A stretch of DNA of 64,000 nucleotides from Clostridia bacterium (GTDB lineage Bacteria; Bacillota; TC1; UBA5767). A program made the translations under genes and the position numbers. Positions 4,955 to 20,039 of this stretch are shown here, in pieces; the first letter of the stretch is position 1; each line of letters begins with the position of its first letter. The DNA is taken from NCBI GenBank assembly GCA_016887505.1, contig CP069393.1:1102001-1166000 (forward strand), read 5' to 3'. The notes below the pieces were generated by a model. That model worked only from the letters and a program-made list of their open reading frames with translations, was not told where the DNA came from and searched no databases.

Positions 4955-5058
4955 TTCACTAGATATAGATGAATTAACACTATCCAAATTGCCATATCGG
5001 CAAGACTCTTGTGAAACAGATCACTATACTTCGTCTAAGATAACAAACTAATATATAA

Positions 5059-13193: not shown

Positions 13194-13334
13194 CTCTCCC
13201 CTCAAAACTAGATTGCATAAGCAACTTATGTTTGTATTTGAGTCTCGATATGTGTTTGATTCATGGTGTTGGAAATATATCCTCTACTTAAATTGTATCA
13301 CGCTTTTTAGGATTTTTAATTACTACTGGGCACA

Positions 13335-13393
13335 AAAAAGAATAAAGCCACAAACAAAAGTTTGGGGCTTAAAGTTTGGGCTTTATTCTTTTG
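13335..13393. terminator. Long-loop bidirectional hairpin between two minus-strand operons
   Basis: Arms AAAGAATAAAGCC and GGCTTTATTCTTT are perfectly complementary around a loop of about 30 bases, with A/T runs at both ends. It sits downstream of the ABC exporter operon and its small membrane ORF. Confidence 0.7.
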
Positions 13394-13449: not shown

Positions 13450-13656
13450 TCAAGAAGGAAGTCTTATTAACCAAATCCCCACTACCCAAAATAACAACAC
13501 CCAAGCAAGAAGAACTACCCTGGTTTCTTTTTCTCCAGCTTTTTCTGACTTGTCTGGAATTTTTCAGTTTCCAAATTGACTCCGGTTACGATTCACAACA
13601 TAGACTACTACTGCCGCATATAGAATGGCAAGAATACCTAAAGCACTTCCATTCAT
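13450..13656 (-). CDS. Small membrane protein ORF split by an in-frame TGA (30 + 37 residues)
   Basis: A frame too short for ordinary gene calling starts ATG at 13656 behind AGGAGGAGAAC, one of the best ribosome sites in the window. It encodes 30 residues with one hydrophobic helix (GILAILYAAVVVYVV) and stops at TGA (13564-13566). In the same frame it continues for 37 more codons: a charged linker (PDKSEKAGEKETR), then a second helix (VVLLAWVLLFWVVGIWLI) and a TGA at 13450-13452. It follows the ABC-2 permease by 10 bases and precedes the operon's hairpin. The first 30-residue product (13564-13656) is well supported. Whether the second half is read through, is a dead remnant, or is translated separately is open. 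Confidence 0.6.
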
Positions 13657-13666
13657 TGTTCTCCTC

Positions 13667-14668
13667 CTATTCCAATCCCTTACGAATACGTGGCACAATA
13701 AATAAAGCAAGCAGGGCGGCTAGTAACACAACAATACCCGTCTGTCCAAGAACACTAGGCCAAGTAGCTGTATTGGAAAGAATCTCATTTACAGATTTAT
13801 AGGACCAGTAATAGGGCAATGGATAAAAGAATTTCTGCCAAAAAGAGTTCAAAAGTTCGGTTGCAGCAATTGCTCCAGCAAGGGGCATGAATAATAGTTT
13901 TATGCCTCCCGCTGCTGTTATCACATCATCACTATTCAAACCTTGAATGAATCCAACCATCACACTAATCAAGGTAATACCAAGTATGGAAATTGTCAGT
14001 TGACCAAAAGAAATATCTCTAAAACCCGTCAATAGCACTAGGGCAAAGGAACCCATGATGGCAAGTACAACACCCATCAGGCTTTTACCCAAGACGAAGG
14101 TTCCCCGACTCATTGGAGTCACATTAAGAGCAGATACCGTCTGATCTACCTTTTCTTCCACAATGCTCATCGCAATCAACATCCCACCCAGTACGGAGGT
14201 AAACAGCATCGCTGCTGCCACCAACAACTTTTTGAGTGGCGGTATGGTATGACCATAATCTACAATTTCTGCATTCGATCCCTTCCCTGCCGTATCCGTT
14301 TCTTGAAGTGTCTTAAGAAGTTTAGCTAGATCTACGACCCCTTCAGGTTCATTTCCTTGGGTAAGAATGTAGTGGCTGTTCTCCTCAGGTAAAATAGCGA
14401 CAATATTATCTCTTTTATTGAGCCTATGTTCGACTGACGCTAGGCTATCGAACTCTTCCACAATCGCAAAGTCACGGTAAAAATCCACATATTCATGTTC
14501 ATCTGACCTAAGAAAGGCTAGACTCACCGTCGTCTCATTGACACTAGGAACTAGTAAATTGATTACCACCGCAAAAAGAATCGGCACCAATATAATATAT
14601 ACCGTAAGAAAATCCCGCGTGCTCACCTTCAGGTCGCGGATAAAAATCAGCAAAGCTCTTCGAATCAT
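13667..14668 (-). CDS. ABC-2 type transporter permease
   Basis: The membrane half of an exporter. An N-terminal helix (LTVYIILVPILFAVVINLL) is followed by a large extracytoplasmic loop (about 50-160). Five more helices then follow, the layout of ABC-2/NatB-type permeases. I prefer the internal ATG at 14668, preceded by AAAGGTGG, to the frame's first ATG at 14689, which overlaps the upstream gene. It is the third gene of an ATPase-permease-permease operon. The substrate is unknown. Confidence 0.88.
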   Translation of the reverse strand: MIRRALLIFIRDLKVSTRDFLTVYIILVPILFAVVINLLVPSVNETTVSLAFLRSDEHEYVDFYRDFAIVEEFDSLASVEHRLNKRDNIVAILPEENSHYILTQGNEPEGVVDLAKLLKTLQETDTAGKGSNAEIVDYGHTIPPLKKLLVAAAMLFTSVLGGMLIAMSIVEEKVDQTVSALNVTPMSRGTFVLGKSLMGVVLAIMGSFALVLLTGFRDISFGQLTISILGITLISVMVGFIQGLNSDDVITAAGGIKLLFMPLAGAIAATELLNSFWQKFFYPLPYYWSYKSVNEILSNTATWPSVLGQTGIVVLLAALLALFIVPRIRKGLE

Positions 14669-14681
14669 ATCGGCCACCTTT

Positions 14682-15791
14682 CTAGGCATAAAGTCTACTT
14701 CTGAATCGCAAGTCGGCCAACAAAAACAAAACCATCCCCGCTGCGAAAAATCCCAATGAGCTCATCAAAACATACGATATTTCTCCAGCCGGTAGCAATG
14801 TTTCCTGAAACCCCTCTAAAACATAGTAGGTAGGAATCAAGCGAATCCAAGCTGGTTCCCAACTAGGTATATAGTATGCGGCCCCTGGTATCATCAAGAA
14901 CATCATTATAAGATACAGTGCTCCAAACGACTTGTTGATATTCTCATAGAAGCCTGAAACCAATAGTCCTAACGAGGAAGTGAAAAATCCAGTAGCCAAT
15001 AAAAAAATCAGAAGGCCCCCATACTGCGCTCTTGCTCCCATCACTGGCAAAACAATAATTAAGCTAGTAACAACACTGGTAGCAGCCACAATCATGATTT
15101 TACTCAGTAAATACTGCCAAACTGCACTTGGTGTAACTGCGTAAGCCCGGATTACGTCTTCCTTTTTGTCTAAAAAAACATAAGCCGCTACAATGAAAAA
15201 GCCCATCAATGCTCCATTAAAGGTGAGAAAAACAGGCAATGTATTTTCCCGTACGTTGAGCAAGACTGGATTATCTTCTATTGTACGAACTTCTTGGGCA
15301 TCAAATATTGCCCCTGTAACCTGAATATCTTCATTGTGTAAGACCAATAAAATATTCCGCATTCTTTCCGACTCGTAACCCTGAATAAAATAGGTGTAGC
15401 GCAATTCCCCCATGTCACCTAGATATACTTCCGCACCTGCTTCATTTTCTATTTCCACCAACTGAAGCAGATCATCACGCTTATCGAACACATTGTAATG
15501 ATTTTCGTTTGTCGAATAGCGACGAACGAGTACTTCCTCTTTTCCAATTTCTATATACATACTTTCCGGCGGCAAGCCATAATACTCATCTAGCACAACT
15601 TCAAGGAAAGCCTCTTGCTCTGCTGGAGGCATATTCAGATAAAGGTATTCATCAACAATGGGGTTATACTGTTTCGGAATCGCAAGCAATAGTACAGCCA
15701 GCATCACCAATGCCATACCAATTTCAACATAAAAATAAAAGCTACGAGAAGCCAGTTTGAATTCTTTGACAAAACTAGACCAGAGCTTCAT
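14682..15791 (-). CDS. ABC-2 type transporter permease
   Basis: Second membrane subunit of the same exporter, with 369 residues. The first helix (FYFYVEIGMALVMLAVLLLAI) is followed by an acidic external domain of about 160 residues, then six helices (including VFLTFNGALMGFFIVAAYVFL and VLMSSLGFFAAGMVLFLLADL). It starts one base after the ATPase stop codon. The two permeases differ in sequence, so the transporter is probably a heterodimer. Confidence 0.88.
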   Translation of the reverse strand: MKLWSSFVKEFKLASRSFYFYVEIGMALVMLAVLLLAIPKQYNPIVDEYLYLNMPPAEQEAFLEVVLDEYYGLPPESMYIEIGKEEVLVRRYSTNENHYNVFDKRDDLLQLVEIENEAGAEVYLGDMGELRYTYFIQGYESERMRNILLVLHNEDIQVTGAIFDAQEVRTIEDNPVLLNVRENTLPVFLTFNGALMGFFIVAAYVFLDKKEDVIRAYAVTPSAVWQYLLSKIMIVAATSVVTSLIIVLPVMGARAQYGGLLIFLLATGFFTSSLGLLVSGFYENINKSFGALYLIMMFLMIPGAAYYIPSWEPAWIRLIPTYYVLEGFQETLLPAGEISYVLMSSLGFFAAGMVLFLLADLRFRSRLYA

Positions 15792-15792
15792 A

Positions 15793-16647
15793 TCAGGCCA
15801 GCTCCCTTCCAGTAACCTTTATGAAAATCTCCTCTAACGTCGCTTCCTTTGTATGCATGGTTTGAATATCGTACTTTTCTATTACCTTCTGCAATAAGGC
15901 TTTATCTTGTGGTAGCACCGTAGAAAAGGTCTTTTTCTGCAGCATACCAGCATCAAGATATTCAACCTCCACAAGCTGTTTTCCATAGCGGAGCTTAAGC
16001 TTTCGAGGTGAATCGACTAGCAGTATCTCACCATCCACGATAAAAGCCACCCTATCACATAGCTCATCCGCAATATACATGTTGTGGGTAGTTAAAAAGA
16101 CCGTAACACCCTTGGCGTTTTCAGCCCGAATAATATCCTTAATCTTAGAAGCAATCGTAGGATCAAGCCCCGTAGTAGGTTCATCCAAAAACCAAAGTTC
16201 CGGATAATTCAACATTGAACGAGCAAAGGTCAAACGATGCTTCATCCCCTTAGAGTACTCACCCGCTCGTATATCTTCTTTACCATCTAGACCTACCATA
16301 TTCAACAGTTCCATGGGATCCATCGTCTTACCATCAAAAAGCTTTCGATAAAACTCCAGATTCTCTTTCCCGGAAAGTTTGGAATAAACATTGGATTGCT
16401 CAAAACTCATGCCAATTTTATTAAACATTTTATTGGACAGTTTCTTAACATCATAACCTGCCACTTCGACCTGGCCTTGCTGCAATCGCAGCAGCCCCGT
16501 CAAAATGCCTTGGGTCGTTGACTTGCCTGCTCCGGAAGGCCCAAGAAAACCGAATATCTCACCTTTTTTCACTTCAAAGCTGATATCCTTCACAGCATAC
16601 GTGTCATTATTTTTGTAGGAATGGAACAAGTTCTGAACCTTGATCAT
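15793..16647 (-). CDS. ABC transporter ATP-binding protein
   Basis: Powers the exporter formed with the two downstream permeases. The Walker A motif is GPSGAGKST (about 35-43), the signature region reads AGEYSKGMKHRL (a degenerate LSGGQ, usual in CcmA/NatA-type exporters), and Walker B is LWFLDEPTTGLD. The H-loop histidine is in TTHNM. The length of 284 residues with a C-terminal extension matches the ABC-2 exporter ATPases. It is the first gene of its operon. Confidence 0.94.
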   Translation of the reverse strand: MIKVQNLFHSYKNNDTYAVKDISFEVKKGEIFGFLGPSGAGKSTTQGILTGLLRLQQGQVEVAGYDVKKLSNKMFNKIGMSFEQSNVYSKLSGKENLEFYRKLFDGKTMDPMELLNMVGLDGKEDIRAGEYSKGMKHRLTFARSMLNYPELWFLDEPTTGLDPTIASKIKDIIRAENAKGVTVFLTTHNMYIADELCDRVAFIVDGEILLVDSPRKLKLRYGKQLVEVEYLDAGMLQKKTFSTVLPQDKALLQKVIEKYDIQTMHTKEATLEEIFIKVTGRELA

Positions 16648-18079: not shown

Positions 18080-19870
18080 TTAGATTCCCAATTCATCAAT
18101 TTTTTCTTGGGTAGGCACACCACTTTCATCCCAGCCTCGCAGAGCATAGTAGCCTTGCAGCATCTCATCCAATCTAGTAACTTCACCGACAGATGGACCT
18201 TCTGAAATTGGCTCTTTTAAGAGTCTAGGTGGTAAGGTATCTTGATCTGCCCCAACACCGGCAGCCATGTTGAATATTCGCTCTATGTTCCAAATTCTTT
18301 CCCCAGCTTTCAGTACTTCCTCGGCAGACCATTTATCTCCGGTTGCCGCTTCAACCATGGCACCATAATCTTCTGCATTCATGGCAAATGAGGTGAATAG
18401 GCATAGCCCAGAAGCATCGATAAAGGCAGATAAATCCTGGAATATTTTAGTCCAAACATCCTTGCCTTCCGTCGCAAATCGGTCCAATTTTTCTGGCAGT
18501 CCCAAAATCTCAGGAGAAATCAAATAGCCACGTACATGACAACCCCCTCTATTGGAAGTCGCATAGGATAATCCTTGACCCTGAATCGCTCTCGGATCAT
18601 AAGCAGGCATTTCCTGTTTTTTAACAGACATGGATAATTCAGGTATTCCATAGGAGTCAGCCAACCTATATGAGCCATCAGCCATTTTATCTCCTAAACC
18701 TTCCCGCATCCCCATTTTCTTCGTCCACTCAACAATGGCCTTGTCATCTCCAAAATTCAAGGATAAGCCATCTAATTCGCGGTCTTTGATGAATCCTTTT
18801 TGGTAGAGTTCCATCGCAGCAGCAATTGTGGTACCCGCTGAAATTGTATCCAAACCATACTCATTACACCAGAAGTTCGCCTCAATCACCGCAGGCAAAT
18901 CAGATACACCACAATCTCCGCCGTATGCCCAAATGGTTTCATATTCTGGGCCTCCACCTTCGACTGTATCCGTTTTACAATAGCGACCACAACCAATCGG
19001 GCAGTGGTAACAGGGATCTTTCTTAACCAAATATTTTTCGGCTAGTTCTTCGCCACTGATGGATTCTGCTCCATCAAATTGAGATCTCTGGAAGTTGTCG
19101 GTCGGGAAAACGCCATTTTCATTAATAATATTAACCAATACAGCAGTACCATAGGCCGGCAATCCTTCACCTGTAACCCCATTTTCTCGAATTTTCTTTG
19201 TAGCTTCCCTAGCAACTGCTTTCAATTTTACAGGATCTGCAATTGGTACTTTATTGGTACCTCTAACGACCACTGCTTTCAAGTTTTTGGAGCCCATTAC
19301 AGCACCAACACCGGATCGACCGGCAGCACGAAAACGGTCGTTCATTACAGCAGCTATCCGAGATAGCTTTTCTCCCGCAGGTCCAATGGTTAAAATTCTA
19401 GATTTCTCAGGAGCATCTTTTTCTAGAAGATCTGTCGCTTCAGAGACCAGTTTCCCCCAAAGATGCGCTGCATCCTTGATTTCCACCTTATCATCTTCCA
19501 CTTGAATATATACTGGTTTTTCGGCTTTACCTTCCACAATAATCATGTCATAACCAGCAAATTTTAGCTCAGCCCCCCAGTAACCACCAGAATTGGAAGA
19601 AGCTATGGTGTCTGTCAAAGGTGACTTCGTCACAACCATATACCGTCCACCCGTTGGTGTCGGTGTTCCGCTCAATGGCCCTGTAGCAATAAATAATTTA
19701 TTAGCCGGACTTAAGGCATCCACACCTGCATCCACTTCGTCGGCAAACATCTTAGTTGCCAGTCCGCGGCCTCCTACATAGTCCCTCGCTAATTTCTCAT
19801 CAAGCTTTTCTACACTGACTTTCCCGGATGATAGGTCGATTCGTAGTACCTTTCCTCGGTATCCAAACAT
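18080..19870 (-). CDS. aor: Aldehyde:ferredoxin oxidoreductase (tungsten-pterin enzyme)
   Basis: Oxidises aldehydes to acids (or reduces acids) with ferredoxin as electron partner, in the cytoplasm. The length of 596 residues matches the family (about 605). The [4Fe-4S] ligands appear as Cys287-x2-Cys290-x3-Cys294, with a late Cys in DASGLCLF, matching in spacing the known Pyrococcus enzyme. The N-terminal domain starts GYRGKVLRIDLSSG, typical of the family, and pterin-binding stretches such as AAGRSGVGAVMGSKNLKAV are present. The ribosome site is AAAGGGAGGG. It follows a structured leader and precedes cofactor-maturation genes, supporting a W- or Mo-pterin enzyme. Confidence 0.96.
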   Translation of the reverse strand: MFGYRGKVLRIDLSSGKVSVEKLDEKLARDYVGGRGLATKMFADEVDAGVDALSPANKLFIATGPLSGTPTPTGGRYMVVTKSPLTDTIASSNSGGYWGAELKFAGYDMIIVEGKAEKPVYIQVEDDKVEIKDAAHLWGKLVSEATDLLEKDAPEKSRILTIGPAGEKLSRIAAVMNDRFRAAGRSGVGAVMGSKNLKAVVVRGTNKVPIADPVKLKAVAREATKKIRENGVTGEGLPAYGTAVLVNIINENGVFPTDNFQRSQFDGAESISGEELAEKYLVKKDPCYHCPIGCGRYCKTDTVEGGGPEYETIWAYGGDCGVSDLPAVIEANFWCNEYGLDTISAGTTIAAAMELYQKGFIKDRELDGLSLNFGDDKAIVEWTKKMGMREGLGDKMADGSYRLADSYGIPELSMSVKKQEMPAYDPRAIQGQGLSYATSNRGGCHVRGYLISPEILGLPEKLDRFATEGKDVWTKIFQDLSAFIDASGLCLFTSFAMNAEDYGAMVEAATGDKWSAEEVLKAGERIWNIERIFNMAAGVGADQDTLPPRLLKEPISEGPSVGEVTRLDEMLQGYYALRGWDESGVPTQEKIDELGI

Positions 19871-19920
19871 TCAACACCCTCCCTTTCGTTGGCACATATT
19901 TGCCTAGCGATTTGACGCTC

Positions 19921-20039
19921 GGTATCCTTTCCAAACGCGGGAGGCTATATGGTTTCCCCTATAACCCAATGGCTGAGAATCCTTGGTTTTCACTTTAGGT
20001 TGCTCAGCTCGGATAGCTTGTCTATACCTAAAAGATACC
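19921..20039 (-). promoter_or_regulatory. Structured leader resembling the Moco/Tuco riboswitch
   Basis: Minus-strand leader 50 bases upstream of the oxidoreductase start. I see nested helices: an outer pair GGTATC/GATACC (20034-20039 with 19921-19926), then GCTAT/ATAGC (20013-20017 with 19944-19948), then GCTGAG/CTCAGC (20003-20008 with 19972-19977). A further possible closing pair ACGCTC/GAGCGT lies just outside. The 3' side carries AGCCTCCCG and GGAAAGGATACC, which match my memory of the conserved core of the molybdenum/tungsten cofactor (Moco/Tuco) RNA motif. Tuco variants are known ahead of tungstoenzyme genes. The structure is seen in sequence, and the family assignment is inference. 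Confidence 0.62.

Follow-up and report, generated by a model that had tools for sequence, protein, structure and literature searches.

An in-frame TGA behind an ABC-2 operon as the probable by-product of two compensating frame changes in a small two-helix membrane-protein gene

Small accessory membrane proteins that are encoded with a transporter, or that act together with one, are known from examples such as AcrZ and KdpF. A literature search for small accessory proteins of ABC transporters yielded no relevant report. Surveys of bacterial selenoproteins require Cys/TGA pairs in homologues together with a SECIS-like stem-loop (PMC1088965). Here we compare with these systems a small gene carrying an in-frame TGA, located on the minus strand of a 64,000-nucleotide stretch of DNA (the window, by which we mean the whole stretch analysed and whose positions are used below).

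The small gene is the last of an ABC operon, whose other genes (16647-13667, in the order ATPase-permease-permease) lie directly 5' of it on the minus strand. These are an ABC ATPase (15793..16647, Pfam ABC_tran) and two ABC-2 permeases (14682..15791 and 13667..14689, both Pfam ABC2_membrane_3), of which the latter adjoins the small gene. After the Shine-Dalgarno sequence AGGAGGAGAACA comes the ATG start codon (13656-13654), followed by 30 codons with the product MNGSALGILAILYAAVVVYVVNRNRSQFGN and then the TGA at 13566-13564. Past this TGA the same frame (frame 1) stays open for 37 codons, KIPDKSEKAGEKETRVVLLAWVLLFWVVGIWLIRLPS, ending at a second TGA (13452-13450), 3' of which folding predicts a strong hairpin with a T-run, a putative intrinsic terminator at 13315..13391 (AAAGAATAAAGCC ... 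GGCTTTATTCTTTTTT). This arrangement, read from the minus-strand sequence, matches the original prediction at each element. Helix 1 (13588..13656, MNGSALGILAILYAAVVVYVVNR) and helix 2 (13453..13536, leading to the final TGA) both lie in frame 1, and each is homologous to the corresponding helix of the family described below; the helix 1 region also has a 22-codon match in the closest relative (L023), where the start is identical and the Shine-Dalgarno sequence similar. MoaD-like and ThiF-like genes follow an aldehyde ferredoxin oxidoreductase-like gene (18080-19870) and lead into the ABC operon, and a molybdenum/tungsten cofactor riboswitch is found upstream of the oxidoreductase-like gene at window positions 19908-20026.

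Using the read-through protein as query against 61 related genomes, we found unbroken homologues of 65 aa in two genomes of the same genus (L003 in G001 and L004 in G002, with E-values of 3e-6 and 1e-5), both directly behind a homologous ABC-2 permease, and a third behind a permease in a genome of another order (L029 in G311). The homologues in ABC operons are 65-68 aa long and have two helices without an internal stop. Intact homologues in the matching position indicate that the small gene and both of its halves are real, which bears out the original prediction that an uncalled, interrupted two-helix membrane protein closes the operon and that two helices in one frame are beyond chance. The outcome that would have spoken against it, homologues stopping at the first TGA with no second half, is contradicted by the conservation of both helices. 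The read-through frame aligns with the family profile at 31 bits over residues 6-64, both helices included. A profile of the three ABC-operon members retrieved four further members, of which two are stand-alone genes (in G393 and G311) and two belong to TPR-repeat proteins of G354 and G311 (L065 and L066, respectively). In the TPR-repeat proteins the two-helix module forms the N-terminal domain, and in G311 this gene adjoins the stand-alone copy. The gene stands directly behind an ABC-2 permease in three members of the family and is placed elsewhere in the others. From the position behind the permease, the intact protein is probably an accessory subunit of the exporter. No family member scanned gave an above-cut-off match in Pfam or NCBIfam over the two-helix region; the Pfam look-alike DUF6199 was discarded (at best 8 bits relative to a cut-off of 27.7, and in one homologue only), as were DHHC matches, which fell far under the cut-off.

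Between the helices the family conserves the pattern KPxxxWxxxK....RKxxGdxG. The KPxxxWxxxK....RK part is shared by the three ABC-operon members, and the four other homologues have it with slight deviations. It is here that the window copy departs from the single interrupted frame originally described: the gene is indeed interrupted, but its linker is homologous to the family in a different frame, which the first reading of the sequence had not seen. The frame-1 linker reads NRNRSQFGN-stop-KIPDKSEKAG, without the KP, W and RK residues of the family, and scores -7 to -21 bits against the profile over 15 columns. Read in its third frame, this DNA (13541..13585) gives PESIWKLKNSRQVRK, which scores 11.7 bits exactly at the expected register, over a short segment of only 15 residues. 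When the frame-1 protein was held fixed and its synonymous codons redrawn, 12 of 20,000 sequences scored as high as the displaced linker, as did 10 of 10,000 dinucleotide shuffles of the linker; over both strands of the whole window, 3 in 100,000 positions reach this score. HMMER, given each frame separately, independently selects the PESIWKLKNSRQVRK segment in frame 3.

With the conserved linker in another frame, the interruption of the gene comes down to two frame changes. The first, relative to the homologues, is a shortfall of one base at the conserved Lys-Pro codons (13586..13587), located by frameshift-aware profile alignment, and the second is a shortfall of two bases at or just after a run of five A residues (13537..13544), located by profile and DNA alignment, after which frame 1 is restored. 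The frameshift-aware alignment places the shifts near 13587 and 13540-13537 with a gain of 9.7 bits net of both penalties. The recoding control for this whole alignment is modest, with 4 of 400 sequences reaching the same gain (about 1 in 100). Both sites stay within about 10 bases when other penalties are used, when the stop codon is made free, or when the profile is restricted to the three ABC-operon members; a profile limited to the four members not found in ABC operons yields only a small gain for some penalty settings and, at the mildest ones, favors the unshifted linker. MAFFT alignment of the DNA alone, which is blind to frame, has gaps of 1 nt and 2 nt at the same two places, the 1-nt one lying a few bases upstream. 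The contig of G002 stops one codon before the broken region and no close orthologue spans it, so paralogues and remoter family members served as the standard for the breaks; a search of G001-G003 for the second half of the gene did not turn up the missing orthologue.

The two shortfalls together amount to one codon, the length by which the homologues exceed the window frame at this place; frame 1 therefore resumes in helix 2 and gives the appearance of a single frame. The TGA at 13566-13564 sits between the two breaks, and the family frame reads its bases within CTG AAA (Leu-Lys). At the level of sequence comparison we regard the homology, the displacement of the frame and the two breaks as established. 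The locus would then represent a damaged gene whose intact product, a two-helix membrane protein, has about 66 residues; it is last in an ATPase-permease-permease ABC-2 operon, and in it the one-base shortfall near 13587 would put the linker out of frame and the two-base shortfall near 13540 would restore it. With the linker out of frame, the ribosome would meet a TGA that is normally out of frame and stop at 30 residues, so that only a single-helix peptide would be made. We assign a probability of roughly 0.85 to this reading, in which the gene has been frameshifted twice in the linker and truncated to one helix and the TGA is an out-of-frame by-product. The proposed comparison of homologous frames, with the codon that replaces the TGA as its target, accordingly had a divided outcome: intact homologues exist, and the TGA replaces no sense codon.

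One sub-case of this reading is an undamaged gene in the organism, with both length changes introduced by errors of sequencing or assembly. As might be expected of such errors, each break touches a run of A and no other defect is seen in the gene, and the fact that helix 2 is still open in frame 1 means that any decay would have to be recent, which counts to some degree against damage by two frameshifts. On the other hand, this explanation takes two independent errors in a span of 50 bases, while the three upstream operon genes have open frames, as do the other long genes of the window. We favor real mutations, with error as the less probable origin of the shortfalls. The closest operon relative (L023, DAOUPV010000083.1, matching G002:C96) lies on a contig that ends inside the small gene, after 22 codons. 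Differences between its permease and that of the window are mostly synonymous (pS 0.85, pN 0.10), which indicates that the operon was under selection. In the L023 operon (L023 4905 and 4990-5020), an in-frame TAG comes right after the Walker A motif of the ATPase, and an in-frame fusion joins the ATPase to the second half of the last permease, as would follow from a deletion or a misassembly of about 2 kb, the latter being possible because this is a metagenome assembly. The corresponding operon in G002 thus seems to be broken, which fits relaxed constraint.

Damage by two frame changes is also compatible with a function for what is left, namely that the 30-residue single-helix peptide works as an accessory protein in shortened form, with the remainder of the gene a relic. 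The Shine-Dalgarno sequence is good, and over the first 21 codons synonymous sites differ from G002 more often than nonsynonymous ones (pS 0.58, pN 0.14), but this conservation may predate the damage. Single-helix peptides of about 33-46 aa also occur behind other ABC-2 permeases (L041, L042, L044, L045 and L049), but the parallel with the window peptide may be one of position only, and we consider a functional remnant unlikely. These five peptides, from five genomes and three families, share a basic tail (W.WVL...ALVVAPIK.R.LK), and the three that were scanned gave no match above cut-off in Pfam or NCBIfam.

A simple nonsense mutation, in which a sense codon of frame 1 became TGA while the linker diverged in frame 1, would be in keeping with a frame that is otherwise open through helix 2 and that matches the family as a whole. 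Against it, the linker in frame 1 scores -7 to -21 bits as opposed to +11.7 for the displaced frame and is without KP, W and RK, and the DNA alignment shows two compensating gaps. The homologues also have no Cys, Trp or stop at the position of the TGA. The recent nonsense mutation put forward in the original prediction is therefore quite improbable.

Decoding of the TGA in frame 1, by selenocysteine insertion or by read-through, would give a two-helix protein of 68 residues, and this was worth testing because the genome uses selenocysteine: it encodes tRNA-Sec, SelB and a selD gene with an in-frame TGA. The selD gene (L068, G000:C1:1995478-1996404) has a compact hairpin behind its TGA and thus encodes a selenoprotein SelD. 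The 5-bp stem that had been noted after the TGA of the small gene is present, but it is weak, with a 15-nt loop and a folding energy of -4.8 kcal/mol that is equalled or bettered by 25 of 200 shuffles; the selD control region downstream of its TGA folds at -9.9 kcal/mol into a compact hairpin with a 4-nt loop. The linkers of all seven homologues lack Cys, and at the position of the TGA the ABC-operon members carry Ile or Lys. Furthermore, the frame-1 linker that decoding would produce does not match the family while the displaced linker does, and the family frame removes the TGA altogether, so that recoding is not needed because the frame change accounts for the stop. A programmed shift was rejected, as two separate events would be needed and no standard slippery heptamer was seen at the first break. 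The proposal of read-through or programmed recoding thus loses its footing, and we regard as highly implausible both the decoding of the TGA in frame 1 and, more generally, production of the full two-helix protein from the interrupted gene by either decoding or two programmed frame changes.

With the TGA best explained by two frame changes, one candidate for stop-codon recoding is removed, and the locus illustrates a trap for such searches, as a gene with two compensating indels can be mistaken for a single frame that a stop interrupts. It also points to a little-described small family behind ABC-2 permeases that could be worth naming. In comparison with known systems, the window gene resembles AcrZ and KdpF as a small transporter-associated membrane protein, with a link to its transporter that is genomic only. 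It resembles selD of the same genome in having an in-frame TGA in the presence of selenocysteine machinery, but differs from bacterial selenoproteins in lacking both Cys homologues and a compact hairpin and in losing its TGA when read in the family frame. A further likeness is to the unnamed two-helix family (L003 in G001, L004 in G002 and L029 in G311), with which the window copy has in common its place in the operon, its length, its topology and its helices. The linker motif of this family is shared as well, but in the window copy it lies in a displaced frame, and with two frame changes and a premature TGA in place of an uninterrupted frame, the window gene is best described as a broken member of that family.
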